This document shows positions 44,570-62,146 of a stretch of 64,000 bases of DNA, piece after piece. Position 1 is the stretch's first letter; each line of letters opens with the position of its first letter. Source of the DNA: Variovorax sp. OV700 (GTDB lineage: Bacteria; Pseudomonadota; Gammaproteobacteria; Burkholderiales; Burkholderiaceae_C); the NCBI RefSeq assembly GCF_900099805.1, contig NZ_FNDR01000004.1:248001-312000 (forward strand), written 5' to 3'. The notes under the pieces are model-generated. The model worked only from the letters and a program-made list of their open reading frames with translations. It was not told where the DNA came from and ran no database searches. The position numbers and the translations under genes are program-made.

Positions 44570-44583
44570 TTGACCGCAGTCAA
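44570..44583. promoter_or_regulatory. FNR-like operator upstream of oxlT
   Basis: TTGAC-CGCA-GTCAA, a perfect palindrome with the geometry of an FNR box (TTGAT-N4-ATCAA). It is centred about 125 bases upstream of the oxlT start. The same form occurs at 57093-57106 and 61967-61980. Confidence 0.7.
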
Positions 44584-44754
44584 GTTCCCGACAACCTCGA
44601 GCCCTCGATGACGCGTGATTTCTCGAGCGAGAAACCCAGGTGCGGCATGTGTCGATTCGTGTCTTTCGAAGTCGCCGAAACACGCGCGGACGAGAACGGG
44701 TTTCGACGTGTCCGCCGACAGGTCTGCGCAGTGACAACGCACGGCAAAAGGGGT

Positions 44755-44783
44755 TTGCCTGAGTTAGGGGTAAACCCTATAAT
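44755..44783 (+). promoter_or_regulatory. Promoter with GGGTAAACCC element for the 52-residue gene
   Basis: TTGCCT (44755-44760) and TATAAT (44778-44783) with a 17-base spacer form a near-ideal sigma-70 promoter. GGGTAAACCC (44768-44777) abuts the -10 box, where a bound protein would block or alter initiation. The same element abuts TAAAAT at 62131-62146. Confidence 0.75.
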
Positions 44784-44816
44784 TGCCCTCAGTCATCTCA
44801 ACTTTCGGAGCGCTCC

Positions 44817-44975
44817 ATGAACAACACCGCAGTGAATTCCAACGCACTCAAGAACACCGCTTCGCTGGGCAGCAACGAGACCCTGCGCAGCCTCATCGCC
44901 GCCATGCCCATCGTGATCTTCGCGAAGGCCGCGCGCGCCGCGCTGAAGCGCTCTGCTGGCGCACGCGCACGCTGA
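44817..44975 (+). CDS. 52-residue small protein
   Basis: Begins MNNTAVNSNALKNTASLGSN, then a hydrophobic/amphipathic stretch (LRSLIAAMPIVIFAKAARAA) and a basic tail ending RARAR-like (SAGARAR). A strong promoter and a downstream hairpin frame it, which supports a real gene. No family recognised. It could be a small membrane-associated protein. Confidence 0.6.
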   Translation: MNNTAVNSNALKNTASLGSNETLRSLIAAMPIVIFAKAARAALKRSAGARAR

Positions 44976-44998
44976 TCGCGCGGGGTTCGCCCCCTGTT

Positions 44999-45035
44999 GG
45001 GGAGGTGCGCAAGGCACCTCTCCCTGTTCAGTTTT
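44999..45035 (+). terminator. Terminator after the 52-residue gene
   Basis: GGGGAGGTGC, a short loop and GGCACCTCTCCC form a strong stem; GTTTTTC follows shortly after. It lies between the small gene and the convergent LysR gene. Confidence 0.7.
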
Positions 45036-45965
45036 TCAAGCCGGGGAGTCGAAGGGCACGATCTGCGAAATGAGCGCCGGCCCGTCGGCGAGCAGAAAGT
45101 CCTTGAAGGCCTGCGCCACCGGCGGCAGCCGCTTGTTGCGGCGGTGCACCACGTACCAGTTGAGCATCAGCGGAAAGCCTTCCACGTCGAGCACGCGCAG
45201 GCTGCCGGCGCGGGTTTCCTGGCTGATGGTGTGCGCCGACACGAAGCTCACCCCCATGCCTGCGATCACCGCCTGTTTGATGGTTTCGGTGCTGCGGATC
45301 TCCATGGCGATGTTGATGCCGCTGAGGTCGCCGCCAAAGCCCTCTTCCATCGAATGCCAGGTGTCCGAGGCCTTCTCGCGCACCACGAAGGGCTCGCGCA
45401 TCAGCCGCTTCAACGGGATTCTGGGCACGCCCACCAGCGGATGGTTGGGCGCCGCGACGATCACATAGGGATGCGGCGCAAACGGCTGGTTGATGGTGTC
45501 CAGGTCGGTCGGCGGGCGCACCATGATTGCCAGGTCGGTGAGGTTCTCCGCGATGTGCGTCATGAGCCCTTCGCGGTTGTGCACCGTGAAGTTCAAGGTC
45601 ACGCCGCGGTGCCGGCTCGCAAACTCCACGAGGAGGCGCGGAAAGAAATAATCGCCCGCGCTGATCACACCCACGTTGAGCTTGCCGCCCGAGACGCCGT
45701 TGAATTGCAACATCGCATTCTCGGCCGCCTCGAACTGCTGGATGATGGCGCGGCTGATCTGCAGCAGTTCGGTGCCCGCCGGCGTCAGGTAGATTTTCTT
45801 TCCGAACTGTTCGAACAGCGCATTGCCCGCGTGCTCTTCGAGCTTGCGCACCTGCGTGGACACGGCCGGCTGCGTCAGGTGAAGCTCTTCCGCCGCGCGC
45901 GAGAAGCTCAGCAAACGCGCCACCGCTTCGAAGACTTTCAACTGGCGCAGGGTCGCGTGCTTCAT
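45036..45965 (-). CDS. LysR-type regulator (CbbR-like)
   Basis: 309 residues from ATG 45965. The N-terminus MKHATLRQLKVFEAVARLLS and the effector-domain phrase GVISAGDYFFPRLL are typical of the CbbR-like LysR branch. It is the last gene after pyruvate kinase in the same direction. It may control carbon assimilation in the oxalate cluster; this is inferred from position only. Confidence 0.88.
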   Translation of the reverse strand: MKHATLRQLKVFEAVARLLSFSRAAEELHLTQPAVSTQVRKLEEHAGNALFEQFGKKIYLTPAGTELLQISRAIIQQFEAAENAMLQFNGVSGGKLNVGVISAGDYFFPRLLVEFASRHRGVTLNFTVHNREGLMTHIAENLTDLAIMVRPPTDLDTINQPFAPHPYVIVAAPNHPLVGVPRIPLKRLMREPFVVREKASDTWHSMEEGFGGDLSGINIAMEIRSTETIKQAVIAGMGVSFVSAHTISQETRAGSLRVLDVEGFPLMLNWYVVHRRNKRLPPVAQAFKDFLLADGPALISQIVPFDSPA

Positions 45966-46036
45966 TCGGAAAAAGGTGGTCGCTGCTTCGATCGGACGGG
46001 CATGGTACTGCGCGCCACGCCCCGTGCGAATGCGGC

Positions 46037-47464
46037 CTAGGGTATCCGCGCGACGTGCAGCAGGTTCGTCGTTCCCGAAAGCCCGAACGGCAGGCCAGCT
46101 ACCACCACCACGTCGTTGCCCGTGTTCGCGAAGCCTTCGGTGCACGCGATGCGGCAGGCGCACTCGATCATCTCGGCCACGTCGTGAACGTCATCGACCA
46201 GCACCGCATGCACGCCCCACACCATTGCCATGCGGCGCGCGGTGGCCACATCGGGCGTGAGGCTCAGGATGGGCACGGCCGGCCGCTCGCGGGCGGCTCG
46301 CAGGCTGGTGAAGCCCGACGAGGTGTAGGTGACGGTGGCGGCAGGCGCCAGCAGCGCGGCCACCTGGCGCATCGAAGCGCACACGGCATCGGCGGTGGTC
46401 GACAGCGACGCCTCGTGCGTGGCGTCGATACCGATCCGGTACGACGCATCGGCTTCCACGCGCGAGATGATGCGGTCCATCATGGCGACCGCCTCGAGCG
46501 GGTATTTGCCGGAGGCCGATTCGGCGGAGAGCATCACCGCGTCCACGCCGTCGTAGATGGCGGTTGCAACGTCGGACACTTCGGCGCGCGTGGGCACGGG
46601 CGCGGCAATCATCGATTCGAGCATCTGCGTGGCCACCACCACCGGCTTGCCGCGCTTGCGGCAGGCGCGCACGATGAGGCGCTGCAGTTCGGGCACGCGC
46701 TCGGGCGGCAGCTCCACGCCGAGGTCGCCGCGCGCCACCATGACGCCGTCGCACAGATCGACGATCGCATCGAGGTGGTCGATGGCCGCGGGCTTCTCGA
46801 GCTTGGCCATGATCCATGCGCGCGTACCGATGATGGCGCGCGCCTCCTCGATGTCTTCGGGGCGCTGCACGAAAGAGAGCGCCACCCAATCCACGCCCAT
46901 GGCCAGGCCGCAGGCCAGGTCGTCGAGGTCCTTGGGGGTCAGCGGCGAGATCGGCAGCAGCACGCTCGGCACGTTGACGCCCTTGCGGTCGGAGATCGGG
47001 CCGCCGACCAGCACCGTGGTCTCGGCAAAGTCGGCGCCGTGGCTGTCCACGCGCAGCCGCAGCTTGCCGTCGTCGAGCAGCAGCTCGGTGCCGATCTCCA
47101 GCGCCGCGAAAATCTCGGGATGCAGCAGCGGGGCGCGGCGCGCATTGCCGCTCGCCTTGTCCATGTCGAGGCGGAAGCGCGATCCCGCATCGAGCTGCGC
47201 GCGTCCGCCTTCGAAAGTGCCGAGCCGCAGCTTGGGGCCTTGCAGATCGAGCAGCACGCCGATGGGCCGGCCGAACTCTTTCTCGAGCCGCCGGATCGTG
47301 TCGAGCCGGCGTGCATGGTCGTGCTGCGTGCCGTGGCTGAAGTTGAGCCGGAACACATCCACACCGCGCTCGAACAAGGCACGAATGGCCGGCTCGTCGG
47401 TGGTGGCTGGGCCCAGCGTGGCCACGATCTTCGCGCTGCGTGTACGTCGCATCATCCGTTCCAT
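46037..47464 (-). CDS. pyk: Pyruvate kinase
   Basis: Converts phosphoenolpyruvate and ADP to pyruvate and ATP. 475 residues with RSAKIVATLGPA near the start, FRLNFSHG, the signature IMAKLEKPAAIDHLDAI (active-site Lys) and MVARGDLGVELPPE. ATG 47464 is first; ATG 47452 gives MRRTRSAK and is also plausible. It lies 54 bases after the PanE-family gene. In an oxalate or glyoxylate assimilation route the carbon reaches 2-phosphoglycerate and then pyruvate, which would explain a pyk copy here. Confidence 0.95.
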   Translation of the reverse strand: MERMMRRTRSAKIVATLGPATTDEPAIRALFERGVDVFRLNFSHGTQHDHARRLDTIRRLEKEFGRPIGVLLDLQGPKLRLGTFEGGRAQLDAGSRFRLDMDKASGNARRAPLLHPEIFAALEIGTELLLDDGKLRLRVDSHGADFAETTVLVGGPISDRKGVNVPSVLLPISPLTPKDLDDLACGLAMGVDWVALSFVQRPEDIEEARAIIGTRAWIMAKLEKPAAIDHLDAIVDLCDGVMVARGDLGVELPPERVPELQRLIVRACRKRGKPVVVATQMLESMIAAPVPTRAEVSDVATAIYDGVDAVMLSAESASGKYPLEAVAMMDRIISRVEADASYRIGIDATHEASLSTTADAVCASMRQVAALLAPAATVTYTSSGFTSLRAARERPAVPILSLTPDVATARRMAMVWGVHAVLVDDVHDVAEMIECACRIACTEGFANTGNDVVVVAGLPFGLSGTTNLLHVARIP

Positions 47465-47518
47465 TTCATCGATCGATCACTGCGCGCACGCGGCGCAGAA
47501 TGCGCAGCCTGAAAAGAG

Positions 47519-48532
47519 CTAGCTCGCCATCTCGTGAAGGCAGACCCGGCCGCGCTGTTCTTCCATCGTACGCGCCAGCAGCTTGACGAGCGAATACACG
47601 GTGTCGATGTGCGGCGTCGGGGTCTCGGTGAGCCGGGCCAACTCGACGACCGCACCCACCAGCGCGTCGATCTCCGGTGCGCGGCCGGCTTCGACGTCCT
47701 GCAGCATCGAGGTCTTGTGCTTGCCGACCTTTTCAGCGCCCGCAATGCGCTTGTCGAGCGTCACGCGAAACTCGATGCCCAGCTTGTGCGCCACCGCCTG
47801 CGCCTCGCGCATCATCGCCGCGGCCAGCTCGCGCGAGGGCGGGTATTGGCAGATGTCGACCAGCGTCGAGTGGGAGAGGCTGCTGATCGGGTTGAAGGTC
47901 AGGTTGCCCCACAGCTTGAGCCATATCTCGGCACGGATGTTGTCGAGCACCGGCGCCTTGAAGCCCGCAGCGCTCAAGCAGGCCGAGACGCGGTTCACGC
48001 GCTCACTCGAAGAGCCGTCGAGCTCGCCGACCGGGAAGCGGTCGCCCTCGATGTGCTTGACCACGCCGGGCGCGATCAATTCGGAGGCGGGGTACACCAC
48101 GCAGCCGATGACGCGCTCGGCCGGAATCTTGGACGCCACCAGGCCCGTGGGATCGACGCTGCGCACCGGCGTGCCCGCCAGCGCGCCGCCATGATTGTGG
48201 AAGTACCAGAACGGGATGCCGTTCTGCATCGTCACCACCACCGTCTCGGGACCGAACAGCTTCGGTACGTCGTTGGCTACGGCCTCGACCTGGTGCGCCT
48301 TCATCGCGAGGATGACGATGTCCTGCGGCCCCGCCTGGTCGTAGCGGTCGGTGGCCTTGACGTTCCGCGCCACCTGTTCGGCCCCATCCGCACCGATGAG
48401 CTTGAAGCCGTTGGTGGCAATGGCGTCGAGATTTTTCCCGCGCACGATGAACGTCACATCCTCGCCGGCCAGGGCGAGCTTGGCGCCCACCAGGCCGCCG
48501 ATGGCGCCCGCTCCGATGACTGCTATCTTCAT
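47519..48532 (-). CDS. PanE/ApbA-family reductase, candidate oxalyl-CoA reductase
   Basis: 337 residues from ATG 48532. Rossmann motif GAGAIGGLVGAKLALAG at the N-terminus and the C-terminal ketopantoate-reductase domain with EIWLKLWGNLTFNPISSL containing the conserved catalytic-type Lys. Such proteins are usually annotated 2-dehydropantoate 2-reductase. In Methylobacterium extorquens a paralogue called panE2 was reported as oxalyl-CoA reductase (to glyoxylate). Placement in an oxalate cluster beside pyk makes that role likely here, but it is inference. Confidence 0.85.
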   Translation of the reverse strand: MKIAVIGAGAIGGLVGAKLALAGEDVTFIVRGKNLDAIATNGFKLIGADGAEQVARNVKATDRYDQAGPQDIVILAMKAHQVEAVANDVPKLFGPETVVVTMQNGIPFWYFHNHGGALAGTPVRSVDPTGLVASKIPAERVIGCVVYPASELIAPGVVKHIEGDRFPVGELDGSSSERVNRVSACLSAAGFKAPVLDNIRAEIWLKLWGNLTFNPISSLSHSTLVDICQYPPSRELAAAMMREAQAVAHKLGIEFRVTLDKRIAGAEKVGKHKTSMLQDVEAGRAPEIDALVGAVVELARLTETPTPHIDTVYSLVKLLARTMEEQRGRVCLHEMAS

Positions 48533-48573
48533 GTCGATCCCCAAGGTTGTTGAATCTTTTCGCGCGGGCGAGC

Positions 48574-49356
48574 TCAGCCGAAGCGGTTGCCGAGCCTGCC
48601 GATGCCGCCGATCTCGACTTCGACAAGGCTGCCGGGCTTCATCGAACCGACGCCGATGGAAGTGCCGCACAGGATCACGTCGCCGGGGTTCAGCGTCATG
48701 TCGAGGGAGATCAGGCTCACGAGTTGCTGGACCGAAAAGCGCATGTCGCTGATCGGATAGTTCTGCCGCACCTCGCCGTTGAGCAGCGTGGTCACGGTCA
48801 ATGTTGCGGGGTCGAGGCCGGTGGCCACCACCGGGCCCATGGGGCAGAAGGTGTCGAAGCCCTTGGCCCGCACCCACTGGGTGAACGACGCGTCGCGGTT
48901 CAGTATGTCCGCCACGGTCACGTCGTTGGCGCAGGTGTAGCCGAACACATGGGCCAGAGCATCCACCTCGGGCACGGCGGTGCATGTCTTGCCAATGACG
49001 ATGCCGAGCTCGCCCTCGAACACCACTTTGCCGTCGCACAAGGGCTTGCGAATGTCCGCGCCGGGGGCGAGGTATGAATTGGGCGCCTTCAGCAGGTACA
49101 GCGGCTCCGCGGGCACCGGCAGCTTCAGCTTCTCGCCGAGCGCATGGAAGTTGTTCCACAGCGCAATGACCTTGGTGGGCTCGGTGGGCGTGAGCAGCCG
49201 CACACCGGCCAGTACGAACACGCGGCCGGTCGGCTCGGGGCGCTCGAACATGTTGCCGCGGTGCTCGTGCACGGCATCGCCTACGAGCGTGCCGAATCCG
49301 GTTTCGCCGCCGTGTTCGAAACGGACCCATTGCTGCTGTTGTTGCTGTTGCTGCAT
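48574..49356 (-). CDS. Fumarylacetoacetate hydrolase family protein
   Basis: 260 residues. The N-terminus is MQQQQQQQQW, an eight-Gln run from CAG/CAA codons. The FAH fold motifs are present: LWNNFHALGEKL, KVVFEGELGIVIGK (metal Glu residues), YTCANDVTVADI (metal Asp) and NPGDVILCGT. Family members hydrolyse or decarboxylate C-C bonds of acylpyruvate-like acids or oxaloacetate. The substrate is not known; the cluster suggests a C2-C4 acid. Confidence 0.9.
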   Translation of the reverse strand: MQQQQQQQQWVRFEHGGETGFGTLVGDAVHEHRGNMFERPEPTGRVFVLAGVRLLTPTEPTKVIALWNNFHALGEKLKLPVPAEPLYLLKAPNSYLAPGADIRKPLCDGKVVFEGELGIVIGKTCTAVPEVDALAHVFGYTCANDVTVADILNRDASFTQWVRAKGFDTFCPMGPVVATGLDPATLTVTTLLNGEVRQNYPISDMRFSVQQLVSLISLDMTLNPGDVILCGTSIGVGSMKPGSLVEVEIGGIGRLGNRFG

Positions 49357-49399
49357 GTCGCGCCTTCCTTGGTTCTGTTGGAGTGTGTTTTTTCAGGGC

Positions 49400-50299
49400 T
49401 CAGTCGAAGGGCAGGTAGTCGGGGATGACGAGCGACGCGAGCAGCTTGCCCATCTCGGCCGGGTTGTCGGTCACGTGAATGCCGCACTCCCTCATCACCG
49501 CCAACTTTTCCTTTGCCGTTCCCTTGCCGCCCGAGACGATGGCGCCTGCGTGGCCCATGCGCTTGCCTGGCGGTGCGCTGGCACCGGCAATGAAGCCAAC
49601 GACGGGCTTGTGCATGTGGTCCTTGATCCAGCGTGCGCAGATCTCTTCGTCGTTGCCGCCGATTTCGCCGACCATGATCACGGCGTCGGTGCGCGGGTCG
49701 TCGTTGAACATCTTCAGCACGTCGATGTGCCGCAGCCCGCCGACCGGATCGCCGCCGATGCCGACGACGGTCGATTGCCCGATGCCATAGTTGGCAAGCT
49801 GGCTCGCGGCCTCGTAGGTCAACGTGCCCGAGCGCGACACCACGCCGATGCGGCCCTTCTGGTGGATGTGGCCCGGCATGATCCCGATCTTGATTTCATC
49901 AGGCGTGATGAGGCCGGGGCAATTGGGGCCGAGCAGCAGGGCCTTGCTGCCTTCCAAGCGATGGCGGGTGCGGATCATGTCGCGCACCGGAATGCCTTCG
50001 GTGATGCACACCACCAGGTCGAGCCCCGCATCCACCGCTTCGTCGATGGCTGCGGCAGCGAAAGGGGGCGGCACGTAGATGACCGAGACGGTGGCGCCTG
50101 TTTCAGCCTTGGCTTCCTTGACTGTGCCGAACACTGGAATGCCGTCGAAGGACTTGCCTGCCTTCTTCGGATTCACGCCGGCGACGAAGCACCTCTGGCC
50201 GTTGCCGTAGTCGCGGCACATGGCGGTGTGGAACTGGCCTGTCTTGCCGGTGATGCCCTGGGTGATGACGCGGGTGTGCTTGTTGATGAGGATGGACAT
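49400..50299 (-). CDS. sucD: Succinate-CoA ligase alpha subunit
   Basis: 299 residues with the CoA-binding N-domain ([21 protein letters not shown]), [20 protein letters not shown] and the phosphohistidine loop [16 protein letters not shown]. With SucC it interconverts succinate, CoA, ATP and succinyl-CoA. The gene lies inside the oxalate cluster, not with TCA-cycle genes, so it may be a second, pathway-specific copy. Confidence 0.93.
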
Positions 50300-50401
50300 G
50301 TCAGCTCTCCATCTTTTGTTCGAGGCACCTTTGTTGAGGGCTCTTGTTCAGGGCGGGAGCGCGCCCTGAATGCGCGACACGACATATCAAAGAGCGAGTT
50401 T

Positions 50402-51574
<1,173 letters not shown>

Positions 51575-51580
51575 GGCAAT

Positions 51581-51910
51581 TCAGGCCCCGAGTTCTGCGC
51601 CGCGGCTTTCGGCCCAGTTGAAATAGCGCTTTTTCATGGCACCCGTATCCAGCTCGCGCTTTTGATGCTCTTCCTTCTTCTGCTCGATCACCTCGGCCAG
51701 GAATTTGGCGTCGTAGGCGCGCAGCAGATGCGGCTGGTGGGTATTCAGGTAATGACAGATCCGCTCGATGCCGTCTTGCGTCTGGCGCAGCAGCTGGCAA
51801 TAGATTTCACGGTCCCAGTGCCAGCGGAAACCCAGTTCGTAGAACGCGGCGTTGTAGGCGTTGCGCTCGGTTTCGCTGCTCCAGTATTGAATTGGCAATT
51901 CATCGATCAT
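51581..51910 (-). CDS. Hypothetical protein ahead of sucCD
   Basis: 109 residues from ATG 51910, with AGGAG 8 bases upstream (TAGGAGAAATTTCATG). Trp-, Tyr- and charge-rich and apparently soluble: WSSETERNAYNAAFYELGF, a Gln/Arg-rich middle and LDTGAMKKRYFNWAESRG near the end. The gene stop is 7 bases before sucC. No family recognised. Confidence 0.7.
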   Translation of the reverse strand: MIDELPIQYWSSETERNAYNAAFYELGFRWHWDREIYCQLLRQTQDGIERICHYLNTHQPHLLRAYDAKFLAEVIEQKKEEHQKRELDTGAMKKRYFNWAESRGAELGA

Positions 51911-52122
51911 GAAATTTCTCCTAGAAATTGAACGCCGGGCGACAAATGATTTGTGGATCGGCATGATCAAAATGTAGATTGGATGATCGATAAATAATAG
52001 TTAAACTATTTTATTGAATGCATTCGCGATAAGTTATACATACGGGGCGACGAATTTCCATCGCCGGCGCATCTGTCGCCCCGCGTCTTAATTGCGCTTT
52101 TTTGAAAAAGCCGCGCCGCGGC
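51911..52122 (-). promoter_or_regulatory. AT-rich control region upstream of the hypothetical-sucCD unit
   Basis: A 212-base gap, the largest within the minus-strand oxalate cluster and clearly AT-rich. It contains an inverted repeat AATAGTT-A-AACTATT (51996-52010). A promoter here for the 51910 gene and sucCD is likely, but I cannot pin down its boxes. Confidence 0.45.
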
Positions 52123-53370
52123 TCAGATCACGCCCTCTGCACGCAGCGCCTGCACATCGCCCGCGGTGTAGCCCAGTTGCATCAACACTTCTTCGGTGTG
52201 CTCGCCAAGCAGCGGCGAGCGCGTGACCTCGGTCGGGCTGTCGGACATCTTGATCGGATTGCCCACCGTCAGGTACTTGCCCCGCGTCGGGTGGTCCACC
52301 TCGACGATCGTGCCGGTCTCGCGCAGCGACGGGTCGGCGGCGATTTCCTTCATCGAAAGAATCGGCCCGCACGGAATGTCGTACTGGTTGAGGATGTCCA
52401 TGGCCTCGAACTTGTCCTTGGTCATGGTCCATTGCTCGATGCGCGCGAAGATCGGCTTCAGGTGCAGCAGGCGCGCCGCCGGCGTGGCGTAGGCCTCGTC
52501 GGTGATCCAGCCTTCTTCGCCGATGACCTTGCACACGGCCGGCCACACCGCCCCTTGCGTGATGAAGTAGATGTAGGCGTTGGGGTCGGTCTCCCAGCCC
52601 TTGCACTTGAGAATCGAGCCCGGCTGGCCACCGCCCGAGGCGTTGCCCGCGCGCGGCACCGCGTCGCCGAACTTGCCGTCCGGGTACTGCGGGTATTCGT
52701 GCATGGTGCCGGTGCGCTCCAGCCGCTGCTGGTCGCGCATCTTCACGCGGCAGAGGTTGAGCACCGCGTCCTGCATGGGCGCGAGCACCTGCTGGCCGCG
52801 GCCCGTGTTGTTGCGCTGGTAGAGCGCGGCCACGATGCCCAGCGCCAGGTGCAGGCCGGTGCCGCTGTCGCCGATCTGCGCGCCCGTGACGACCGGCGGG
52901 CCGTCTTCGAAGCCGGTGGTCGAGGCCGCGCCGCCCGCGCACTGGGCCACGTTCTCGTACACCTTGCAATGCTCGTACTTGCCGGGGCCGAAGCCCTTGA
53001 CCGACGCGACGATCATGCGCGGGTTGAGCTCCTGGATGTGGGCCCAGGTAATGCCCATGCGGTCGAGCGCGCCGGGCGCGAAGTTCTCCACCAGCACGTC
53101 GCAGGTCTTGATCAGCGTGTCGAGCACTTTCTTGCCCTTGGGCTTCTTGGTGTCGAGCGTGATCGAGCGCTTGTTGTGGTTCAGCATCGTGAAGTAGAGG
53201 CTGTCCACACCGGGAATGTCGCGCAGCTGGCCGCGCGTTGCGTCGCCTTCGCCGGCGCGCTCCACCTTGATCACGTCCGCGCCGAACCACGCCAGCAATT
53301 GCGTGCACGTGGGACCGGACTGGACATGGGTGAAGTCGAGAATGCGAACGCCCTCAAGTGCCTTGCTCAT
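52123..53370 (-). CDS. frc: Formyl-CoA:oxalate CoA-transferase paralogue 1 (CaiB/BaiF family)
   Basis: 415 residues, class III CoA-transferase. The catalytic Asp lies in [16 protein letters not shown]. The glycine loop reads ASGGGQPG, with one Ser where the Oxalobacter enzyme type has Gly. [18 protein letters not shown] is the typical start. Its ATG overlaps the stop of the PAS gene (TGATG), so they are translationally coupled. Its acceptor or donor may differ from paralogue 2. Confidence 0.88.
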
Positions 53371-53807
53371 CAGCTGTCTCCTTTGATCGTGGTCTCTGCT
53401 TCTTGCAGACGAGCGCGCAATTTACGCTCCTCCGCAAAGCGGGCTGTTTCGTCTCGCACGAAGGCAACGATGCCCGTGACTTCACGATTTTCCGAGAACA
53501 GCATCGACACCGTGAAGGCGATCGACAGCGTGTGCCCGTCCTTGTGCAGCGCCGGCACGCGCAGCAGATCGGCACCGTACTTGGTGATGCCGGTGTCCAT
53601 GGTCTTGTTGTAACCGTCCCAGTGCCGCTGGCGCTGCCGCTGGGGAATGATCATGTCGAGCGACTGGCCCAGGGCCTCCGCTTCGGTAAAACCGAAGATG
53701 CGCTCGGCCGCGCGGTTCCAGAGCGTGATTGCTCCTTCCGCATTGCACACCATGATCGCGTCGCCGGCGCCTTCGACGATCTGCTTGAAATCAACGTTCG
53801 CTTGCAT
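53370..53807 (-). CDS. Stand-alone PAS-domain protein
   Basis: 145 residues: one PAS domain ([39 protein letters not shown], then [16 protein letters not shown] beta strands) and a short charged coil at the C-terminus. It has no kinase, GGDEF or DNA-binding domain. The gene sits between two CoA-transferase genes and overlaps the next. It may sense a ligand or redox state and act on a partner encoded elsewhere; the role is unknown. Confidence 0.85.
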
Positions 53808-53834
53808 GTTTACCTCTGGCGCTTCATGTCATTT

Positions 53835-53872
53835 CCCAGCTCGTCCGCCTGTCGTCAAGCGGACGAGCTGGG
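53835..53872 (-). terminator. Perfect 14-bp hairpin between frc paralogue 2 and the PAS gene
   Basis: CCCAGCTCGTCCGC and GCGGACGAGCTGGG form a perfect stem with a 10-base loop. No T-run follows on the minus strand. It may stop or slow transcription, or protect mRNA ends, between the oxc-frc and PAS-frc parts of the cluster. Confidence 0.6.
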
Positions 53873-53881
53873 GTGAGTCCG

Positions 53882-55153
53882 CTAGACGGCCTTCGATTCT
53901 TTCAGGTTGTCGATCTGTGCCTGGGTGTAGCCCAGTTCGGCCAGCACCTGTTCAGTGTGCTCGCCCAGCAGCGGCGAGGCGGTGACCTCGGGCTTGAGGT
54001 CCGAGAACTTGATCGGGCTGCCGATGGTCCAGTAGCTGCCGCGCTCCTTGTGCGGCACTTCGACGATGGAGCCGCTCTTGCGCAGCGACTCGTCGTGCAG
54101 CAGCTCTTTCATCGACAGCACCGGGGCGCAAGGAATGTCGTGCTTGCGGAAGATGTCCACCGCCTCGAACTTGGTCTTGTCCTTGATGAAGTCTTCGATG
54201 GTGGCGAAGATCTGGTCGATGTGCGGCTGGCGGGCCTTGGGGGTCATGTAGTCCGGATCGGTCTTCCACTCGGGCTTGCCGAGCGCATCGCAGATCGGGT
54301 CCCAGGCGTGGCCCTGCACCGTGAAGTAGATGTAGGCGTTGGGGTCGGTCTGCCAGCCCTTGCACTTCAGGATCCAGCCCGGCTGGCCGCCGCCGCCGGC
54401 ATTGCCGCCGCGCGGCACCACCTTGTCCTTGAATGCGTCCATCTCGTGCGGGTATTGCGGGTATTCCTCCAGGTAGCCCACGCTGTCCAGGCGCTGCTGG
54501 TCGCGCATCTTCACGCGGCACAGGTTGAGCACGGCATCCTGCATCGAGCAGGCCACCTTCTGGCCCTTGCCCGTTTGCTGGCGGCCGATGATGGCCGTCA
54601 GGATGCCGATGGCCAGGTGCATGCCTGTGTTCGAGTCGCCCAGCGCCGCGGCCGAGATCGTCGGGGCCGAGTTTTCGCCCTTCCACCAGCCGGTGGTGGA
54701 GGCGGCGCCGCCGGCGCACTGCGCCACGTTCTCGTACACCTTCAGGTCTTCATAGTGGTGGCCGTCGCTGAAGCCCTTGACCGAGGCGACGATCATCTTC
54801 GGGTTCAGCTCCTGGATGCGTTCCCAGGTAAAGCCCATGCGGTCCAGCGCGCCGGGGCCGAAGTTCTCGACCAGCACATCCGATTCCTTGATCATCTTCT
54901 CCAGCACGGCCTTGCCTTCGGGCTTCTTCGTGTCCAGCGTGATCGAGCGCTTGTTGCTGTTCAGCATGGTGAAGTACAGCGCGTCGACGTTGGGGATGTC
55001 GCGCAGCTGGCTGCGGGTGACGTCGCCGGCGCCCGGGCGCTCGACCTTGATCACGTCGGCGCCGAACCAGGCCAGCATCTGGGTACAGGCCGGACCGGCT
55101 TGCACGTGCGTGAAGTCGATGATCTTGATGCCGTTGAGGGGTTTGTTGCTCAT
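53882..55153 (-). CDS. frc: Formyl-CoA:oxalate CoA-transferase paralogue 2
   Basis: 423 residues, class III CoA-transferase. Catalytic Asp in [16 protein letters not shown] and an intact glycine loop AGGGGQPG, both close to the Oxalobacter formigenes enzyme as I recall it. It moves CoA from formyl-CoA to oxalate, giving oxalyl-CoA for the decarboxylase encoded 27 bases upstream. This is the better candidate for the classical Frc. Confidence 0.93.
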
Positions 55154-55180
55154 GGAAATTAACTCCTGGGTTGCCTTGGA

Positions 55181-57019
55181 TTACTGCTGCTGCTTTTTCT
55201 TTGCCGTGCTCGGATTGAGGCTGGTGATCCGGCCGCTTTCCGTTCCGGCCGTCTCGTCGATGACGGCATTGATCAGGGTCGGACGGCGCGAGGCGACGGC
55301 TTCGGCCAGCGCCTTCTGCAATTCATCCGCGGTGGTGGCGTTGACGCCCACGCCACCGAACGCTTCCATCAGCTTGTCGTAGCGCGCGTTCTTCACGAAC
55401 ACGGTGGGCGCCACGTCGGGCGTGCCGCTCGGGTTGACGTCGGTGCCGCGGTAGACGCCGTTGTTGTTGAACACGACGATGCAGATCGGCAGGTTGTAGC
55501 GGCAGATGGTTTCCACCTCCATGCCGCTGAAGCCGAAGGCGCTGTCGCCCTCGATGGCGATCACCGGCTTGTCGGTGACCACCGCGGCCGCCACGGCAAA
55601 GCCCATGCCGATGCCCATGATTCCCCAGGTGCCCACGTCGAGGCGCTTGCGCGGCTCGTACATGTCGACGATGCTGCGCGCGAAGTCGAGCGTGTTGGCG
55701 CCTTCGTTCACCACGATGGCGTCGGGCCGGGCCTTCACCTGGTCGCGGATCACGCTCAGCGCGCTGTGGAAGTTCATTGGCGAGGGCCGCGCGGCCAGCG
55801 TCACGGCCATCTTCGACAGGTTCTTGTCCTTGCGCTCGGCAATGGCACCGGTCCATTCGGCCGGCGGCTTGGCCCACTTGGCGTCGACGCCAGCGAGCAG
55901 TGCCGCCACGCAGGAGCCGATGTCGCCGATCACCGGCGCCGCAATGGCCACGTTGCTGTCGATCTCGGTTGGTGCAATGTCGATCTGGATGAACTGCTTG
56001 GCGCCCTTCTCCTGGCCCCAGGTCTTGCCCTTGCCGTGCGACAGCAGCCAGTTGAGGCGCGCGCCGACCAGCATGACCACGTCGGCTTCCTGCAGCACGT
56101 AGGAGCGCGCGGCCGCGGCCGATTGCACATGCGTGTCGGGCAAGAGGCCCTTGGCCATCGACATCGGCAGGTAGGGAATGCCGGTCTTCTCAATGAATGC
56201 GCGGATGTCGGCGTCGGCCTGCGCGTAGGCGGCGCCTTTGCCCAGCAGGATGAGCGGCTTCTTCGCACCCTTGAGGAGGTCGAGTGCGCGATTCACGGCA
56301 TCGGGCGCCGGAATCTGGCGCGGTGCCGGGTCGATCACCTTGATGAGCGAGCGGCGGCCGGCTTCGGCGTTCATGGTCTGGGCGAACAGCTTGGCCGGCA
56401 GGTCGAGGTACACGCCGCCCGGGCGGCCCGACAGCGCCGAACGGATGGCGCGTGCAATGCCCACGCCAATGTCTTCGGCATGCAGCACGCGGAAGGCGGC
56501 CTTGCACAGCGGCTTGGCAATGGCGAGCTGGTCCATTTCTTCGTAGTCGCCCTGCTGCAGGTCGACGATTTCGCGCTCGCTCGATCCGCTGATGAGAATC
56601 ATCGGGAAGCAGTTGGTGGTGGCGTTGGCCAGCGCGGTGAGGCCGTTCAGGAAGCCGGGCGCCGACACGGTCAGGCAGATGCCGGGCTTCTGCGTCAGGA
56701 AGCCGGCGGCCGCAGCCGCGTTGCCCGCATGCTGCTCGTGGCGGAACGAGATGACCCGCAGGCCTTCGGCCTGTGCCATGCGCGTGAGGTCGGTGATCGG
56801 GATCCCCGGCAGGCCGAAGATGGTGTCGATGTCGTTCAGCTTCAGCGCATCGATGACCAGGTGAAAGCCGTCGATCGTCGCGTCGTGCGCCGCCGTTGCT
56901 TCCTCCGTGGGGTGTTTGAGGGCGACCACGACTGCGTCGCCGTCTGCTGCCCGGTTCTTGGGCTTGAGGGCGTCGTCCAGGGTCGTGGATGCCTCTTTGT
57001 CCGTTCTTACTGAAGACAT
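55181..57019 (-). CDS. oxc: Oxalyl-CoA decarboxylase
   Basis: Thiamine-diphosphate enzyme that turns oxalyl-CoA into formyl-CoA and CO2. 612 residues: about 45 extra N-terminal residues, then [21 protein letters not shown], the catalytic Glu in [12 protein letters not shown], and the ThDP/Mg motif [11 protein letters not shown] ... NNNGVYRG. It is the first gene of the minus-strand cluster and faces the FNR-like regulator across a palindromic site. Confidence 0.96.
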
Positions 57020-57091
57020 GTCTCTCCTTCTTGCTTGGGTGAATGGCCGAGGCCCGAGCCGGGACTATGATTCGGGGGCATGCTTTCGGGC

Positions 57092-57107
57092 GTTGACCTC
57101 GGTCAAC
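57092..57107. promoter_or_regulatory. FNR-like operator between oxc and its likely regulator
   Basis: GTTGACCTCGGTCAAC; the core TTGAC-CTCG-GTCAA is 57093-57106. It is centred about 80 bases from the oxc start and 76 from the regulator start, so it could serve both. Same form as the sites ahead of oxlT and tctC. Confidence 0.8.
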
Positions 57108-57175
57108 TTTCCGGAAAACGGCACCGGCCAGATGAACCAGATGTTGTTGTTGCGAATTCGAGCAAGACGGGACCC

Positions 57176-57784
57176 ATGACGTTGTTGGAAAACCACCCGG
57201 AGAAAAACATCATTCGCGCGCAGCTCCGGCAGAACATCCTTCTCAAGGACCTGAACGAGAGTGAGCGCGCCGAGCTGGAAACCCATCTCGTCATCGTGGA
57301 CGGCAACAAGGGCGACTTTCTGCTGCACCAGGGCGTGCGCGAGATGGAGCAGTACTTCATCCTCGACGGCATCCTCAAGCGGGTGGTGAGCAACCCCGAG
57401 GGCAAGGAAATGATCCTGCGCTTTGCCGACGCGCACGACATGGAAACCAGCTACGCGGCGCTGCGGCTGGGCACGCCCACGCCCTACGGCATCGTTTGCG
57501 TCACCAAGGCGCGCGTGGCCAGCCTGCCGCTGAAGGAGTGGATCGCGTTCCTGGACCGGCACCCCGAGACCAAGGAGCTGTTCGAATACTGCGTGATGCG
57601 CGGCATGAGCGAAATCATGGCGCACACCATCACGCTTCATTTGCTCGACGCGCCCGGCCGCGTGCACCGGTTCATGCGCAAGCACCCGGAGCTCGAAGAC
57701 CGCATTCCGAGCAAGGAATTGGCCTCGTACCTCAATCTCTCCGCGGAAACCCTGAGCCGCCTGCGCAAACGCGGAAAGATCTAG
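57176..57784 (+). CDS. CRP/FNR-family transcriptional regulator
   Basis: 202 residues from ATG 57176. A cNMP-type sensor domain spans about residues 20-130 without the Cys cluster of FNR. The helix-turn-helix at about 168-200 includes IPSKELASYLNLSAETLSRL; Glu191, Ser194 and Arg195 form the ExxSR pattern that in FNR reads TTGA half-sites. That fits the TTGAC palindromes found at three promoters in this window. The ligand is unknown; an oxalate-pathway CoA or acid is a guess. Confidence 0.9.
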   Translation: MTLLENHPEKNIIRAQLRQNILLKDLNESERAELETHLVIVDGNKGDFLLHQGVREMEQYFILDGILKRVVSNPEGKEMILRFADAHDMETSYAALRLGTPTPYGIVCVTKARVASLPLKEWIAFLDRHPETKELFEYCVMRGMSEIMAHTITLHLLDAPGRVHRFMRKHPELEDRIPSKELASYLNLSAETLSRLRKRGKI

Positions 57785-57797
57785 GCGGGCGCGGTAC

Positions 57798-58634
57798 TCA
57801 GGTCTGCTTCGCTGAAGCGAAGCGGCGCGGAACGGTCATCAGGCGCAGCGCGTTGTCAACGCCGCTTACGCCGCCGACCTTGGAAGCTACATCCTCCGTG
57901 AGCGCACGCTCCTGTGCATTGAGCACGATGCCGCTCAGCTTTACCTTGCCCTGATCGGCCTCCACGGTCACGCGGATGTCGCCGGTCTGCTCGTTGTCCT
58001 TCAGTGCCGACTTCACCCGCGCAGCGAGTGCCATGTTGGCCAAGAGCGCGCGCGAGGCCGGTGTCTCGGCAAACTCCGGGCGCTCGACCAGCGCGCGGAT
58101 CTGCGCCACGCAACTGTCCACCGAGAGGCGGTCCGTGTTGAGCACCAGGTCGTAGAGCACCGGGTCGCCCCATGTCACGCCGAACTGCGCATGCATGCGC
58201 GCCGCATGCGCGTCGTCGCTGCGCCGGATCTCGGCTTCGGCAAACTCGGCGTCGTCGGTCTCCAGGTGCGCCATCAGCCATTCGACTCGCTTTTTCATCG
58301 AGCGCGTGATGCGCACGCACACCACGTGCGGCACCGGGCGCAACAGGCAGGTTGCGCCCCAGCCGCGAAGCACCACGTTGCCGCGGTCCGCCAGTGCGAA
58401 GAGTTCCTCTGCCGTGTAGAGCGCAAGGCTGCGCTTGTCGGCGGTAAGCCGCTCGACGAAGCCGGCCTTGCCGTCGCGCAGGCGACCGATGAAGCTGGTC
58501 GGCACCTGCATGCGGTCGGCCACGCGCTCGATCGTCTCGTGGCGCATGATCTCGAGGCCGAGCTGCTCGGCGAGGCGCTGCGACACGTCCTTGGCAAGGG
58601 AACCCATCTCCTGGGTGAGTGCAATCACTGGCAT
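57798..58634 (-). CDS. Cytidylate-kinase-like protein fused to a BON domain
   Basis: 278 residues. The first ~195 resemble the cytidylate-kinase-like family (MPVIALTQEMGSLAKDVSQRLAEQL, GWGATCLLRPVPHVVCVRI, WGDPVLYDLVLNTDRL); the N-terminal loop EMGSLAKD is a weak P-loop. From about 205 a BON domain follows (ALAARVKSALKDN, VKLSGIVLNAQERALTEDV). BON domains usually bind membranes or partners. The gene follows tctA by 17 bases, so it is probably in the transporter operon. Function unknown. Confidence 0.82.
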   Translation of the reverse strand: MPVIALTQEMGSLAKDVSQRLAEQLGLEIMRHETIERVADRMQVPTSFIGRLRDGKAGFVERLTADKRSLALYTAEELFALADRGNVVLRGWGATCLLRPVPHVVCVRITRSMKKRVEWLMAHLETDDAEFAEAEIRRSDDAHAARMHAQFGVTWGDPVLYDLVLNTDRLSVDSCVAQIRALVERPEFAETPASRALLANMALAARVKSALKDNEQTGDIRVTVEADQGKVKLSGIVLNAQERALTEDVASKVGGVSGVDNALRLMTVPRRFASAKQT

Positions 58635-58651
58635 GGTGTGTTCCGTTCCGT

Positions 58652-60181
58652 TCAGTCCACAGGCCGCTCGACGGCAAACTCATCCGGCTTCTTCGGCTTG
58701 ATGAAAGCCAGCGCCTTGGAGATCAGCGGCCAGAACAGCAGCACGAGCGCCAGGGTGGTGATACCGCCGACCAGCGGGTTCGAGAACATGATCATCACGT
58801 CGCCTTGGGAGACCAGCATGGCCTGGCGGAACGAGTCTTCCGCCTTGTCGCCGAGCACCAGCGCCAGCACCAGCGGCGCCAGCGGAAAGTCGAGCTTCTT
58901 GAACAGATACCCCACCACACCGAAACCGAGCATGAACCAGATGTCGAGCATCGCGTTGTGCACGGTGTAGGCACCGATGGCGCAGATCACGATGATCACC
59001 GGCGCAATGATCGAGAACGGAATGCGCAGGATCGAGGCGAACAGCGGCACCGTGCTCAGCACCACGATGAGGCCGACGATGTTGCCCAGGTACATGCTGG
59101 CAATCAGGCCCCAGACAAAGTCCTTCTGCTCGACGAACAGCAGCGGTCCGGGCTGCAAGCCCCAGATCAAGAGGCCACCCAGCAGCACCGCGGCAGTGGG
59201 CGAACCCGGGATGCCGAGCGCCAGCATTGGCAGCAGCGCGCTGGTGCCGGCCGCGTGCGCCGCGGTCTCGGGCGCCACGACGCCTTCCATCTGGCCGGTG
59301 CCGAATTTGGAACCGCGCTTCGACATCTTCTTGGCCAGGCCGTAGGCCATGAACGAAGCCGGCGTGGCGCCGCCCGGCGTGATGCCCATCCAGATGCCGA
59401 TGAGCGAGCTGCGGAGCGACGTCACCCAGTATTGCGGCAGTTGCTTCCACGTTTGCAGCACCACCTTGGGATCGATCTTCGCGGTCTTGCCCGAGAACTT
59501 GAGGCCCTCTTCCATCGACAGCAGGATTTCGCCGATGCCGAACAGGCCGATGACCGCGATCAGGAAATCGAAGCCGCGCATCAGCTCCGACTGGCCGAAC
59601 GTGAGCCGCAGCTGGCCCGTGACTGTGTCCATGCCCACGCTGGCCAGCGCAAAGCCTAGCGCCATGGACGCCAGGATCTTGAACGGCGACCCCTTGCCCA
59701 TGCCCACGAAGCTGCAGAAGGTGAGCAGGTACACCGCAAAGAACTCGGGCGAGCCGAACTTGAGCGCGAACTTGGCCACCAGCGGCGCGAGGAAGGTGAT
59801 CATGATCACCGCCAGCAGCGCACCGACGAAGGACGATGTGAAGGCCGTGGTCAGCGCGGCGCCGGCGTTGCCCTGCTGCGCCATCGGGTAGCCGTCGAAG
59901 GTGGTGGCCACCGACCATGGCTCGCCGGGAATGTTGAACAGGATGGAGGTGATGGCTCCACCGAACAACGCGCCCCAGTAGATGCACGACAGCATGATGA
60001 TCGCCGAGGTGGGCGACATCGTGAACGTGAGCGGCAGCAGAATCGCCACCCCGTTGGCGCCACCCAGTCCGGGGAGCACGCCGATCAGCACCCCCAGGAT
60101 GATGCCGACGAACATCAGGCCGATGTTCATGGGTGTGAGGATCACCGAGAAGCCCTGCATCAGGGCACTGATTTCATCCAT
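58652..60181 (-). CDS. tctA: Tripartite tricarboxylate transporter large subunit TctA
   Basis: 509 residues with 10-12 membrane helices. Family motifs: GVLIGVLPGLGGANGVAILLPLTF, GSPTAAVLLGGLLIWGLQPGP and GITPGGATPASFMAYGLAKK (each quoted in part). It forms the permease with TctB and receives substrate from the periplasmic TctC/Bug protein. It lies downstream of tctC and tctB. Confidence 0.95.
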   Translation of the reverse strand: MDEISALMQGFSVILTPMNIGLMFVGIILGVLIGVLPGLGGANGVAILLPLTFTMSPTSAIIMLSCIYWGALFGGAITSILFNIPGEPWSVATTFDGYPMAQQGNAGAALTTAFTSSFVGALLAVIMITFLAPLVAKFALKFGSPEFFAVYLLTFCSFVGMGKGSPFKILASMALGFALASVGMDTVTGQLRLTFGQSELMRGFDFLIAVIGLFGIGEILLSMEEGLKFSGKTAKIDPKVVLQTWKQLPQYWVTSLRSSLIGIWMGITPGGATPASFMAYGLAKKMSKRGSKFGTGQMEGVVAPETAAHAAGTSALLPMLALGIPGSPTAAVLLGGLLIWGLQPGPLLFVEQKDFVWGLIASMYLGNIVGLIVVLSTVPLFASILRIPFSIIAPVIIVICAIGAYTVHNAMLDIWFMLGFGVVGYLFKKLDFPLAPLVLALVLGDKAEDSFRQAMLVSQGDVMIMFSNPLVGGITTLALVLLFWPLISKALAFIKPKKPDEFAVERPVD

Positions 60182-60202
60182 TTCGCATTTGCTCCGTGAG
60201 AT

Positions 60203-60724
60203 TCAGTAGCCGAGAAAACGGAGGGGATCGAGTGCGCCCTTGAACAGCGGCACCTTGAACCACACCTCGAACATGAAGAAGAACACCGTGCTGACCGCCA
60301 GCGCCGCAATGACGCTCTTCACCCACGAGTATTTGCCCAGGAACACCATGAACAGCGCGATGTAGATCGCCGAGGCCACGTACAGACCGAGCGCCGAAAT
60401 GGCCAGCACATAGACCGTGGCCGGCACCAGCACAGAGAGCACGCGCTTGAGCTGCACCGTGTCGACGAAGACCTCGGTCTTCTTGTTCTTGCCGAGCAGC
60501 GCCTGATACAGGATGCCGGCCCCCGAGATGGTGATGATCACCCCGATGTAGAACGGGAAGTACCCCGCGCCGGGGCCGTCGCTGGTCCAGCCCGAGCCCA
60601 GCCTCTGGCTCTCGTAGATCACCACCAGGCCAATCACCACCAGGACCAGCGCAACCACCGCCTCGACCAGGTTGGTCGCTACGCCCCTGCGCGGCGCGCC
60701 ATCGGAAATCTCGTCGTGTTCCAT
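60203..60724 (-). CDS. tctB: Tripartite tricarboxylate transporter small subunit TctB
   Basis: 173 residues with four membrane segments, for example VEAVVALVLVVIGLVVIYES and the C-terminal VIAALAVSTVFFFMFEVWFKVPL (quoted in part), the typical TctB layout ending PLFKGALDPLRFLGY. 21 bases before tctA. Confidence 0.9.
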   Translation of the reverse strand: MEHDEISDGAPRRGVATNLVEAVVALVLVVIGLVVIYESQRLGSGWTSDGPGAGYFPFYIGVIITISGAGILYQALLGKNKKTEVFVDTVQLKRVLSVLVPATVYVLAISALGLYVASAIYIALFMVFLGKYSWVKSVIAALAVSTVFFFMFEVWFKVPLFKGALDPLRFLGY

Positions 60725-60847
60725 GGAGTTCCCATCGTTCGTATGTATGTGCCGGGAAAAAACGAGGGTGCAGCGCCCCCCCGCCGCCCGGCCGGCGGCA
60801 GTCTCTTCAGGCAGGAAACGCTGCAGGGCGCTCGATTGCCGCTACTG

Positions 60848-61873
60848 CTACTTGTTGCTGGCCAGGAAGCCGGCTTCGCTCATCAACGTGCGGTGCGTGG
60901 CTTCCGCTTCGGTGAGCCACTTGGTGAACGCGTCGCCCGTCATGAAGGTCGGGTTGAAGGCACCCTTCTCCATGTATTCCTTCCAGTCCGGCGTGGCGGC
61001 GATCTTGGTCAGCAGATCGACATAGAACGCGCGCTGTTCGGGCGTCACGCCGGGCGGCATGAAGATGCCGCGCAGCATGGTGTACTTGGTCGGAACGCCG
61101 GCTTCCTTGCAGGTGGGAATGTCGTTCCACGACTGCGTGTCGGTCACCTTGGCCTTGAACGGCATGCGCTCGTCGTCGAACACGCACAGCGCGCGCAGCT
61201 TGCCTGCGCGCCACTGGGCGACGGCTTCGATCGGGTTGTTGACCGTGGACTGCACGTGGCCGCCCACCAGCTGCACCGCCACTTCGCCACCGCCCTTGAA
61301 CGGCACGTAGATGAACTTGGTGCCCGTGGCCTTCTCGAGCGCCACCGTGATGATCTGGTCTTCCTGCTTGGAGCCGGTGCCCGCCATCTTGAACTTGCTC
61401 GGGCCCGCCGCCTTGGCCGCCGCGATGTACTCCGCGGCGTTCTTGTATGGCTGCTCGGCATTGGTCCACAGCACGAACTGGTCGAGCGCCATCATCGCGA
61501 CCGGCGTCATGTCCTTCCAGTTGAATGGCACACCAGTGGCCATGGGCGTGGTGAACAGGTTGGACAGCGAGATGACGATCTTGTGCGGATCGCCCTTGGC
61601 CTCCTTGATCGCCAGGAAGCCCTCGGCGCCCGCGCCGCCCGACTTGTTGACGACGATCAACGGCTCCTTCATGAGCTTGTACTTGATGACGATGCCCTGC
61701 AGCAGCCGGCCCATCTGATCGGCGCCTCCGCCGGTGCCCGCGGGGATCACGAACTCCACCGGCTTGGTGGGCTCCCATGCGAAGGCTGGCGTGGCCACCG
61801 CGAGTGCCAGCATGGCCGCGGTGAAGACTTTGGCCCGACAAGCGCGAGTGCGCGAAAAGAAGTTCTTCATCAT
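60848..61873 (-). CDS. tctC: Tripartite tricarboxylate transporter binding protein (TctC/Bug)
   Basis: 341 residues from ATG 61873 (or 61870). A signal peptide ends PAFAWEPTKPVEFVIPAGTG; the Bug fold carries VNKSGGAGAEGFLAIKEAKG and GTGSKQEDQI. The binding site is not diagnostic, but Bug proteins bind carboxylates. The FNR-like site at 61967-61980 suggests co-regulation with oxalate genes. The open frame extends upstream without support. Confidence 0.93.
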   Translation of the reverse strand: MMKNFFSRTRACRAKVFTAAMLALAVATPAFAWEPTKPVEFVIPAGTGGGADQMGRLLQGIVIKYKLMKEPLIVVNKSGGAGAEGFLAIKEAKGDPHKIVISLSNLFTTPMATGVPFNWKDMTPVAMMALDQFVLWTNAEQPYKNAAEYIAAAKAAGPSKFKMAGTGSKQEDQIITVALEKATGTKFIYVPFKGGGEVAVQLVGGHVQSTVNNPIEAVAQWRAGKLRALCVFDDERMPFKAKVTDTQSWNDIPTCKEAGVPTKYTMLRGIFMPPGVTPEQRAFYVDLLTKIAATPDWKEYMEKGAFNPTFMTGDAFTKWLTEAEATHRTLMSEAGFLASNK

Positions 61874-61966
61874 GTTGTCTCCTGTGTAAGGTGCGCTCTT
61901 TTTTTGGTGAATCTGAGCCGAGATGCGAACAGGGCAGATGGTGCGCGCTGGTAGAACTTCGCTTGC

Positions 61967-61980
61967 TTGACCATGGTCAA
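61967..61980. promoter_or_regulatory. FNR-like operator upstream of tctC
   Basis: TTGAC-CATG-GTCAA, a perfect palindrome centred about 100 bases before the tctC start. Same form as at oxlT and oxc. Confidence 0.75.
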
Positions 61981-62130: not shown

Positions 62131-62146
62131 GGGTAAACCCTAAAAT
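62131..62146 (+). promoter_or_regulatory. GGGTAAACCC element abutting a -10 box
   Basis: GGGTAAACCC (62131-62140) is followed directly by TAAAAT, a -10-like box, about 43 bases before the 78-residue gene. The arrangement repeats that at 44768-44783. No clear -35 box is seen here, which may mean activator dependence. Confidence 0.6.

Follow-up and report, generated by a model that had tools for sequence, protein, structure and literature searches.

FNR activates transcription from class II positions at TTGAT-N4-ATCAA, and a centre near −41.5 is the class II position of both CRP and FNR. The E. coli homologues of oxc and frc are controlled by EvgAS, which likewise acts on the transcription of oxalyl-CoA genes but is a two-component acid-resistance system and not a member of the CRP/FNR family. 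Oxalate, a bulk product of plants and fungi, is harmful in the human gut. The present analysis concerns a stretch of 64,000 nucleotides from Variovorax sp. OV700 (contig NZ_FNDR01000004.1, positions 248,001 to 312,000; G000:C27:248001-312000 in our numbering, from a genome of 6.48 Mb), referred to here as the window, in which a gene for a CRP/FNR-family protein of 202 amino acids (aa) stands among genes for oxalate uptake and breakdown. This protein is very probably a dedicated activator of the oxalate uptake and breakdown genes in Burkholderiales. The claim is based on conservation, co-occurrence, the dependence of a shared DNA site on the regulator and a polar promoter layout, all of them read from genome sequences, and it is from these that we infer DNA binding, an activating sign and the signal.

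A close parallel to the DNA site comes from HcpR. PMC1274295 gives wyTTGACnnnnGTCAArw as the motif of the HcpR1 branch, says that HcpR proteins lack the FNR cysteines, and links two CRP residues, Arg180 and Glu181, with site bases G3 and A6; HcpR1 proteins without Arg180 are reported there to read TTGACnnnnGTCAA. The palindromes of the window match this HcpR motif, and in the window's regulator Ala190 takes the position of CRP Arg180 and Glu191 that of Glu181, in agreement with the published residue-base rule. HcpR differs in being described with hcp and nitrogen-oxide genes, whereas the window's regulator stands with oxc, frc and oxalate transporters; the HcpR structure 9day_B is a distant match at 14% identity. 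CRP shares with the regulator the cyclic-nucleotide-binding fold, the helix-turn-helix, and the Glu and Arg of the recognition helix, but the replacement of Arg180 by Ala190 is in line with TTGAC instead of TGTGA, and the positions of the cAMP phosphate contacts are Thr-Pro in the regulator when lined up by eye. FNR is set apart by three features: the regulator has no fully conserved Cys, the fifth base of its site is C/G and not T/A, and its putative regulon serves oxalate use. The comparison with DNR consists of weak PDB matches, and 3dn7, a Cytophaga hutchinsonii regulatory protein listed without function, is 19% identical.

Coordinated expression of such genes has been described. In PMC12542777, frc, oxc and the antiporter of Collimonas pratensis are raised together in nutrient-poor medium, and PMC5209427 reports such clusters of Burkholderia terrae raised near a fungus. 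No regulator of oxc, frc or the antiporter is named in the accessible portions of these two papers or of PMC1274295, PMC4974557, PMC5986945 and PMC4764995. A literature search likewise found no CRP/FNR-type regulator named for oxc or frc in the texts it reached, with subscription journals mostly outside it, and earlier work may exist. The proposed regulon is new and its regulator is of a known kind.

The first-pass annotation of the window had proposed a dedicated FNR-like oxalate regulator that shares the perfect palindrome TTGAC-N4-GTCAA with its targets, and had placed copies at 44570, 57093 and 61967. All three are present. The features on which the argument turns are the following.

43126..44451, minus strand: oxlT, oxalate/formate antiporter of the major facilitator superfamily; TIGR04259 equivalog, 668 bits against a cut-off of 335
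44570..44583, minus strand: perfect TTGAC-N4-GTCAA upstream of oxlT, from the pattern search; −10-like GACAGT at class II distance, seen by eye
52123..53370, minus strand: frc, second formyl-CoA transferase; TIGR03253 equivalog
53882..55153, minus strand: frc, first formyl-CoA transferase; TIGR03253 equivalog
55181..57019, minus strand: oxc, oxalyl-CoA decarboxylase; TIGR03254 equivalog, 999 bits against a cut-off of 739
57064..57069, minus strand: CATAGT, predicted −10 of the oxc promoter, 30.5-35.5 nt from the palindrome centre; coordinates counted by hand
57093..57106, minus strand: perfect TTGAC-N4-GTCAA in the divergent gap between oxc and the regulator gene, oriented to oxc by the −10 here and in related promoters
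57176..57784, plus strand: CRP/FNR-family regulator gene, 202 aa; Pfam cNMP_binding, predicted fold, invariant E191 and R195
60848..61873, minus strand: tctC, solute receptor; Pfam TctC PF03401, 111 bits against a cut-off of 27
61967..61980, minus strand: perfect TTGAC-N4-GTCAA upstream of tctC, from the pattern search; also in relatives

The oxalate catabolic gene set is present, with Oxc, both Frc and OxlT passing their NCBIfam equivalog cut-offs. The palindromes lie 118 bp before the start of oxlT (44451), 73 bp before oxc (57019), 69 bp before the regulator gene (57176) and 93 bp before tctC (61873); a longer open frame from 57080 spans the site at 57093, and orthologues nevertheless align from 57176. 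Across the whole genome the perfect palindrome occurs four times (backward control, 2), a frequency favourable to the proposed regulon in this genome, and three of the copies are those of the window. The fourth, at C18:77062, is within a gene, an open frame whose translation was judged by eye to be an ABC-type substrate-binding protein. Three of four copies in one 17.4 kb stretch correspond to a binomial P of ~8e-8, for a stretch picked post hoc. A search of the window with one mismatch allowed returned 5 matches against 0.95 expected, a number reached in 1 of 100 shuffles.

Evidence that the regulator belongs with oxalate breakdown came from 299 genomes drawn evenly from the family, with the regulator called at E 1e-20 or better and oxc at E 1e-150 or better. 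The regulator is present in 50 and oxc in 51; 49 genomes have both, 2 have oxc only and 1 has the regulator only (Fisher P ~1e-52, without correction for relatedness). Neighbourhoods were fetched for 51 loci, 49 with orthologues (all 50 minus the window's own) and 2 with paralogues only. Each of the 49 orthologues has a site upstream; 41 of these sites are perfect, and in the other 8 one half reads TTGAT or ATCAA. A site also precedes tctC in all 30 loci with enough sequence (22 perfect and 8 with a one-base variant). A named set, made of the best 80 of at least 550 loci and partly overlapping the first, gave a similar picture once rows with fewer than 200 upstream bases had been dropped (3/80 for the regulator): the site is present at 76/77 regulator genes, 62/62 tctC genes and 9/13 close OxlT genes, and the sole regulator miss, L174, carries a site with a single mismatch. 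Where gene order is rearranged (L071 and L072), oxlT, oxc and the gap between the regulator and PAS genes each have their own site, and in the congener G215 sites precede regulator/oxc, tctC and oxlT. The regulator was found in Variovorax, Polaromonas, Collimonas and Oxalicibacterium, among others, and a draw from the phylum showed that it is not confined to the window's family. A class-level search met the regulator (1/369) and oxc (1/339) in the window's own genome only, and no controls were gained from it.

Genomes that have oxc and lack the regulator point the same way. G049 encodes oxc, two frc, the PAS protein and an OxlT-like protein; its best match to the regulator, at 24%, is no orthologue, and the palindrome is absent from the 20 kb searched. 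The phylum draw comprised 378 genomes, 28 of them with oxc and 27 besides the window's own. In 4 of these 27 the regulator is beside oxc, and the site is present in 4/4; in 22, neither the regulator nor TTGAY-N4-RTCAA occurs within ~1.5 kb of oxc. A whole-genome search for the regulator in 7 of the 22 found none, and the same query finds matches elsewhere, which serves as a positive control. In G952, oxc has a site without a neighbouring regulator, and a further search located an orthologue (63%) on a different contig; 4.4 kb beyond this orthologue lies a frc-like gene (56%), with TTGATCCGGGTCAA 0.5 kb in front of it. In G197, a tctCBA-oxc-frc-PAS operon lies ~0.68 Mb from the regulator and carries a site ahead of tctC; the genome has three copies of TTGACYNNRGTCAA, every one of them at the regulator or at this operon. 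Judged by these comparisons, the presence of the site depends on the regulator. The proposal of a dedicated regulator with a shared palindrome is supported by conservation and by regulator-dependent site presence, as is control of oxc/frc and of a transporter by it.

The layout of the promoters suggests how the regulator would act. For each side, 100 bases were aligned by the palindrome and near-duplicates were removed, leaving 83/123 promoters for oxc, 70/95 for tctC, 17/19 for oxlT and 85/128 for the regulator side. A strict test, for a TATGAT/TATCAT-like hexamer starting 28.5-31.5 nt from the centre, was positive in 79/83 oxc promoters, where hexamers of this type average 1.1% and reach at most 3.6% at other offsets; on the regulator side it was positive in 4/85. 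A loose test for nAnnnT at 29.5/30.5 was positive in 82/83 for oxc, 67/70 for tctC, 14/17 for oxlT and 8/85 for the regulator side (controls averaged 5 to 9% and peaked at 19 to 41%). The bases just upstream of the site are A-rich (at least 2/3 A) at 79/83 oxc, 65/70 tctC and 8/17 oxlT promoters, compared with 3, 5 and 2, respectively, for the mirrored flank downstream. No conserved −35 hexamer was seen on the oxc side 17 bp before the −10. Since a −10 at such a distance places the centre of the site at about −41.5 or −42.5, we infer an activator site in a class II promoter, with predicted transcription starts. Weak −10 hexamers, on our interpretation, are usual at activator-dependent promoters. 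The regulator would then bind TTGACC-N2-GGTCAA as a CRP/FNR-type dimer, centred about 41.5-42.5 bases before the start of transcription, and the bound dimer would recruit RNA polymerase by class II activation, with activation favoured over repression as the more plausible sign. Its putative targets are the oxc-frc operon, tctCBA and, in some genomes including the window's, oxlT. The simplest guess for the signal is a pathway metabolite (oxalate, oxalyl-CoA or formyl-CoA).

The sensor domain of the regulator is that of the CRP/FNR superfamily (PF00027, 37.9 bits against a cut-off of 27.5), and an AlphaFold2 model built from 43 fairly similar sequences (pLDDT 62 to 89 over five models, 88.8 for the best) adopts the CRP/FNR fold; its top structural matches include CRP-type and FNR structures. 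The model places a C-terminal helix-turn-helix in helices 179-185 and 190-198, the latter with the E..[SG]R recognition pattern; the Pfam scan of the regulator returned no helix-turn-helix family. The ExxSR residues read from the sequence at the outset are correct as Glu191-Ser194-Arg195 with the start at 57176. Two alignments were used, A1 with 29 rows (26 orthologues and 3 paralogues) and A2 with 43 rows. ETLSR is present in 43/43 rows of A2; in A1, Glu191 and Arg195 are invariant in 29/29 rows, and Ser194 is kept in all 26 orthologues and is Cys in the 3 paralogues. No Cys column of the kind expected for an FNR-type [4Fe-4S] cluster is kept in all rows of A1 or A2: the window's regulator has two cysteines (108 and 139), and the best column, 108, is Cys in 35/43 rows of A2 and 16/29 of A1. 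In a phmmer alignment lined up by eye, Ser, Thr and Pro stand where the phosphate-binding cassette of CRP has the Glu, Arg and Ser that contact cAMP. The regulator is therefore probably not an oxygen or cAMP sensor of the classic kinds. It is 100% identical to the regulators of Variovorax L103, L104 and L105. Paralogues at L084:13813-14415, L076:9701-10291 and L077:9791-10381 are 44-45% identical and have ETLCR or ETFCR in place of ETLSR; an oxlT-like gene lies near the paralogue in L084 and L076, and the L084 paralogue is preceded by a perfect palindrome.

Several observations weigh against a dedicated activator or limit its scope. Perfect copies of the palindrome number 11, 7 and 5 in the congeners G215, G285 and G122 (backward controls 2, 6 and 2), and G122 has neither oxc nor the regulator; the pattern by itself is therefore not specific. 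The narrower pattern TTGACYNNRGTCAA has at least one copy in 204/299 family genomes, including all 50 with the regulator and 154/249 without it. OxlT-like genes have a site in only 7/16 cases in the first set, and in 5/8 above 60% identity. The strict −10 is poor at tctC (4/70) and oxlT (5/17), and the −10 offset was chosen from the alignment before counting, although it equals the offset that the class II model predicts. The whole-genome search for the regulator covered 7 of the 22 site-less phylum genomes. Finally, G052 has sites before oxc and oxlT and no regulator was found in it, on a contig that ends just past oxc. Five of the seven perfect copies of G285 were placed: the regulator/oxc and tctC sites are both on C17; none of 15 window genes occurs in the stretches fetched around the copies on C2 and C12, and none within 1.5 kb of the copy on C25.

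The first-pass annotation also took the regulator to be autoregulated, through the site at 57093. The site does lie close before the regulator's start, and it is in the gap before the regulator in 49/49 loci. Against this, a conserved −10 is lacking on the regulator side, as counted above. In the genus g412, 3/3 loci (L232, L233 and L234) have the regulator, the site and oxc in this order and in the same orientation; such a site is absent ahead of the regulator, while a −10-like TAATAT or TAAGAT is present on the oxc side (by eye in L232 and L233), and in G952 no such palindrome precedes the regulator. These layouts and the empty regulator side indicate that the site belongs to oxc, with which it stays where the genes are in tandem or unlinked. 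Autoregulation was thus not upheld, and we regard control of the regulator's own gene from this site as doubtful; repression from the shared site is possible in divergent layouts.

An alternative to a dedicated oxalate activator is that another CRP/FNR protein, such as canonical FNR or DNR, reads the sites, in which case the oxalate genes would respond to oxygen limitation or nitric oxide, with some other function for the neighbouring regulator. An identical palindrome has been ascribed to HcpR and described as a putative Anr box (PMC1274295 and PMC4974557), and the window's genome has further FNR-like sites. However, natural controls disfavour a canonical FNR or DNR: the site is absent from 22/22 oxc loci without a nearby regulator and from G049, while oxc of G952 retains it with the regulator unlinked. 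Moreover, the 7 TTGAT-N4-ATCAA sites in the window's genome, nearer to the FNR box, are all on other contigs. We consider this alternative improbable. It is also conceivable that the regulator represses the oxalate genes and is relieved by oxalate or a CoA ester. A site near the start of each gene would suit a repressor, and sites alone are silent on sign, but the oxc side has the layout of class II activation (centre at about −41.5/−42.5, oriented A-rich flank, no conserved −35), and a repressor seems to us quite unlikely. That the palindromes are chance occurrences or simple −35 boxes, given that many family genomes hold a single copy of the pattern and that TTGAC also matches the −35 consensus, has almost no probability left and chance origin is rejected, since in many genera the same genes retain the two half-sites amid diverging flanks.

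Returning to the dedicated activator, the transporters under its putative control deserve separate mention. Control of two uptake systems had been proposed; the part that finds support is control of a transporter, and the link to oxlT, seen in the window and in the congener G215, is patchy. Within 4.5 kb of the regulator, the 49 loci of the first set have tctA in 34 cases, an OxlT-like gene in 11, neither in 4 and both in 0; the named set of 80 has tctA in 63, an OxlT-like gene in 12 and neither in 5, of which 4 are at a contig end. The window's genome holds both transport systems, farther apart. The exchange of tctA and OxlT, together with the shared site, suggests that TctCBA may carry oxalate. 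A fuller version, in which TctCBA is an oxalate importer that replaces OxlT beside the regulator and is switched together with degradation by an activator whose sensor pocket has turned to oxalate, oxalyl-CoA or formyl-CoA, is tentative, with somewhat less than an even chance of being right.

In the block, oxlT is followed by genes of LysR type and for pyruvate kinase, then by a ketopantoate-reductase-like gene and the CoA-ligase pair; next come the two frc genes, with the small PAS protein between them, and oxc. Beyond oxc lie the divergent regulator (plus strand), a Cytidylate_kin2/BON protein, and then tctA, tctB and tctC (minus strand).

49400..50299, minus strand: succinate/malate-CoA ligase-like alpha subunit; same block, putative role in oxalate use
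50402..51574, minus strand: succinate/malate-CoA ligase-like beta subunit; same block, putative role in oxalate use
53370..53807, minus strand: small PAS-domain protein between both frc genes; Pfam PAS
58652..60181, minus strand: tctA-like large permease subunit; named after the first-pass annotation and by its place beside tctC
60203..60724, minus strand: tctB-like small permease subunit; adjoins tctA here and in relatives

Neighbourhood maps of 15 window proteins show the small PAS protein near frc in several relatives. The CoA-ligase-like pair (49400-51574) also occurs in some Variovorax oxalate neighbourhoods and in Oxalicibacterium L179, and could have a CoA ester of oxalate as its product or supply the pathway. 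The protein with Cytidylate_kin2 and BON domains (57798-58634) stands between the regulator and tctA here and in several relatives. GGGTAAACCCTANAAT has exactly 2 copies genome-wide, both in the window (44768-44783 and 62131-62146), each preceding a small open frame directed away from oxlT or tctC; the two frames (52 aa at 44817 and 78 aa at 62189) have no Pfam match. GGGTAAACCC was considered as a second element shared by the transporters and rejected, being within 600 bases, in either orientation, of just 17/94 tctC genes. In G215, two extra perfect palindromes lie by oxlT, one in the gap between oxlT and the LysR gene and one beyond oxlT (L228:2307 and L228:5433). Elsewhere in the window's genome, G000:C35:9504-27349 has four TTGAY-N4-RTCAA sites in 18 kb, three of them TTGAT-N4-ATCAA, and is possibly a canonical FNR regulon. 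G952 (L231:4432-13811), a genome of 1.9 Mb, carries hydrogenase-like membrane genes immediately following oxc, and a cytochrome bd-like gene there is preceded by a second FNR-like site (TTGACCTGGATCAA); the genes were named by eye.

If the regulator acts as proposed, its regulon would offer a directly testable switch, comprising a regulator, a DNA site and a promoter layout, across several genera. It would also be a candidate oxalate biosensor, and would provide a lead to the substrate of the orphan TctCBA transporter.

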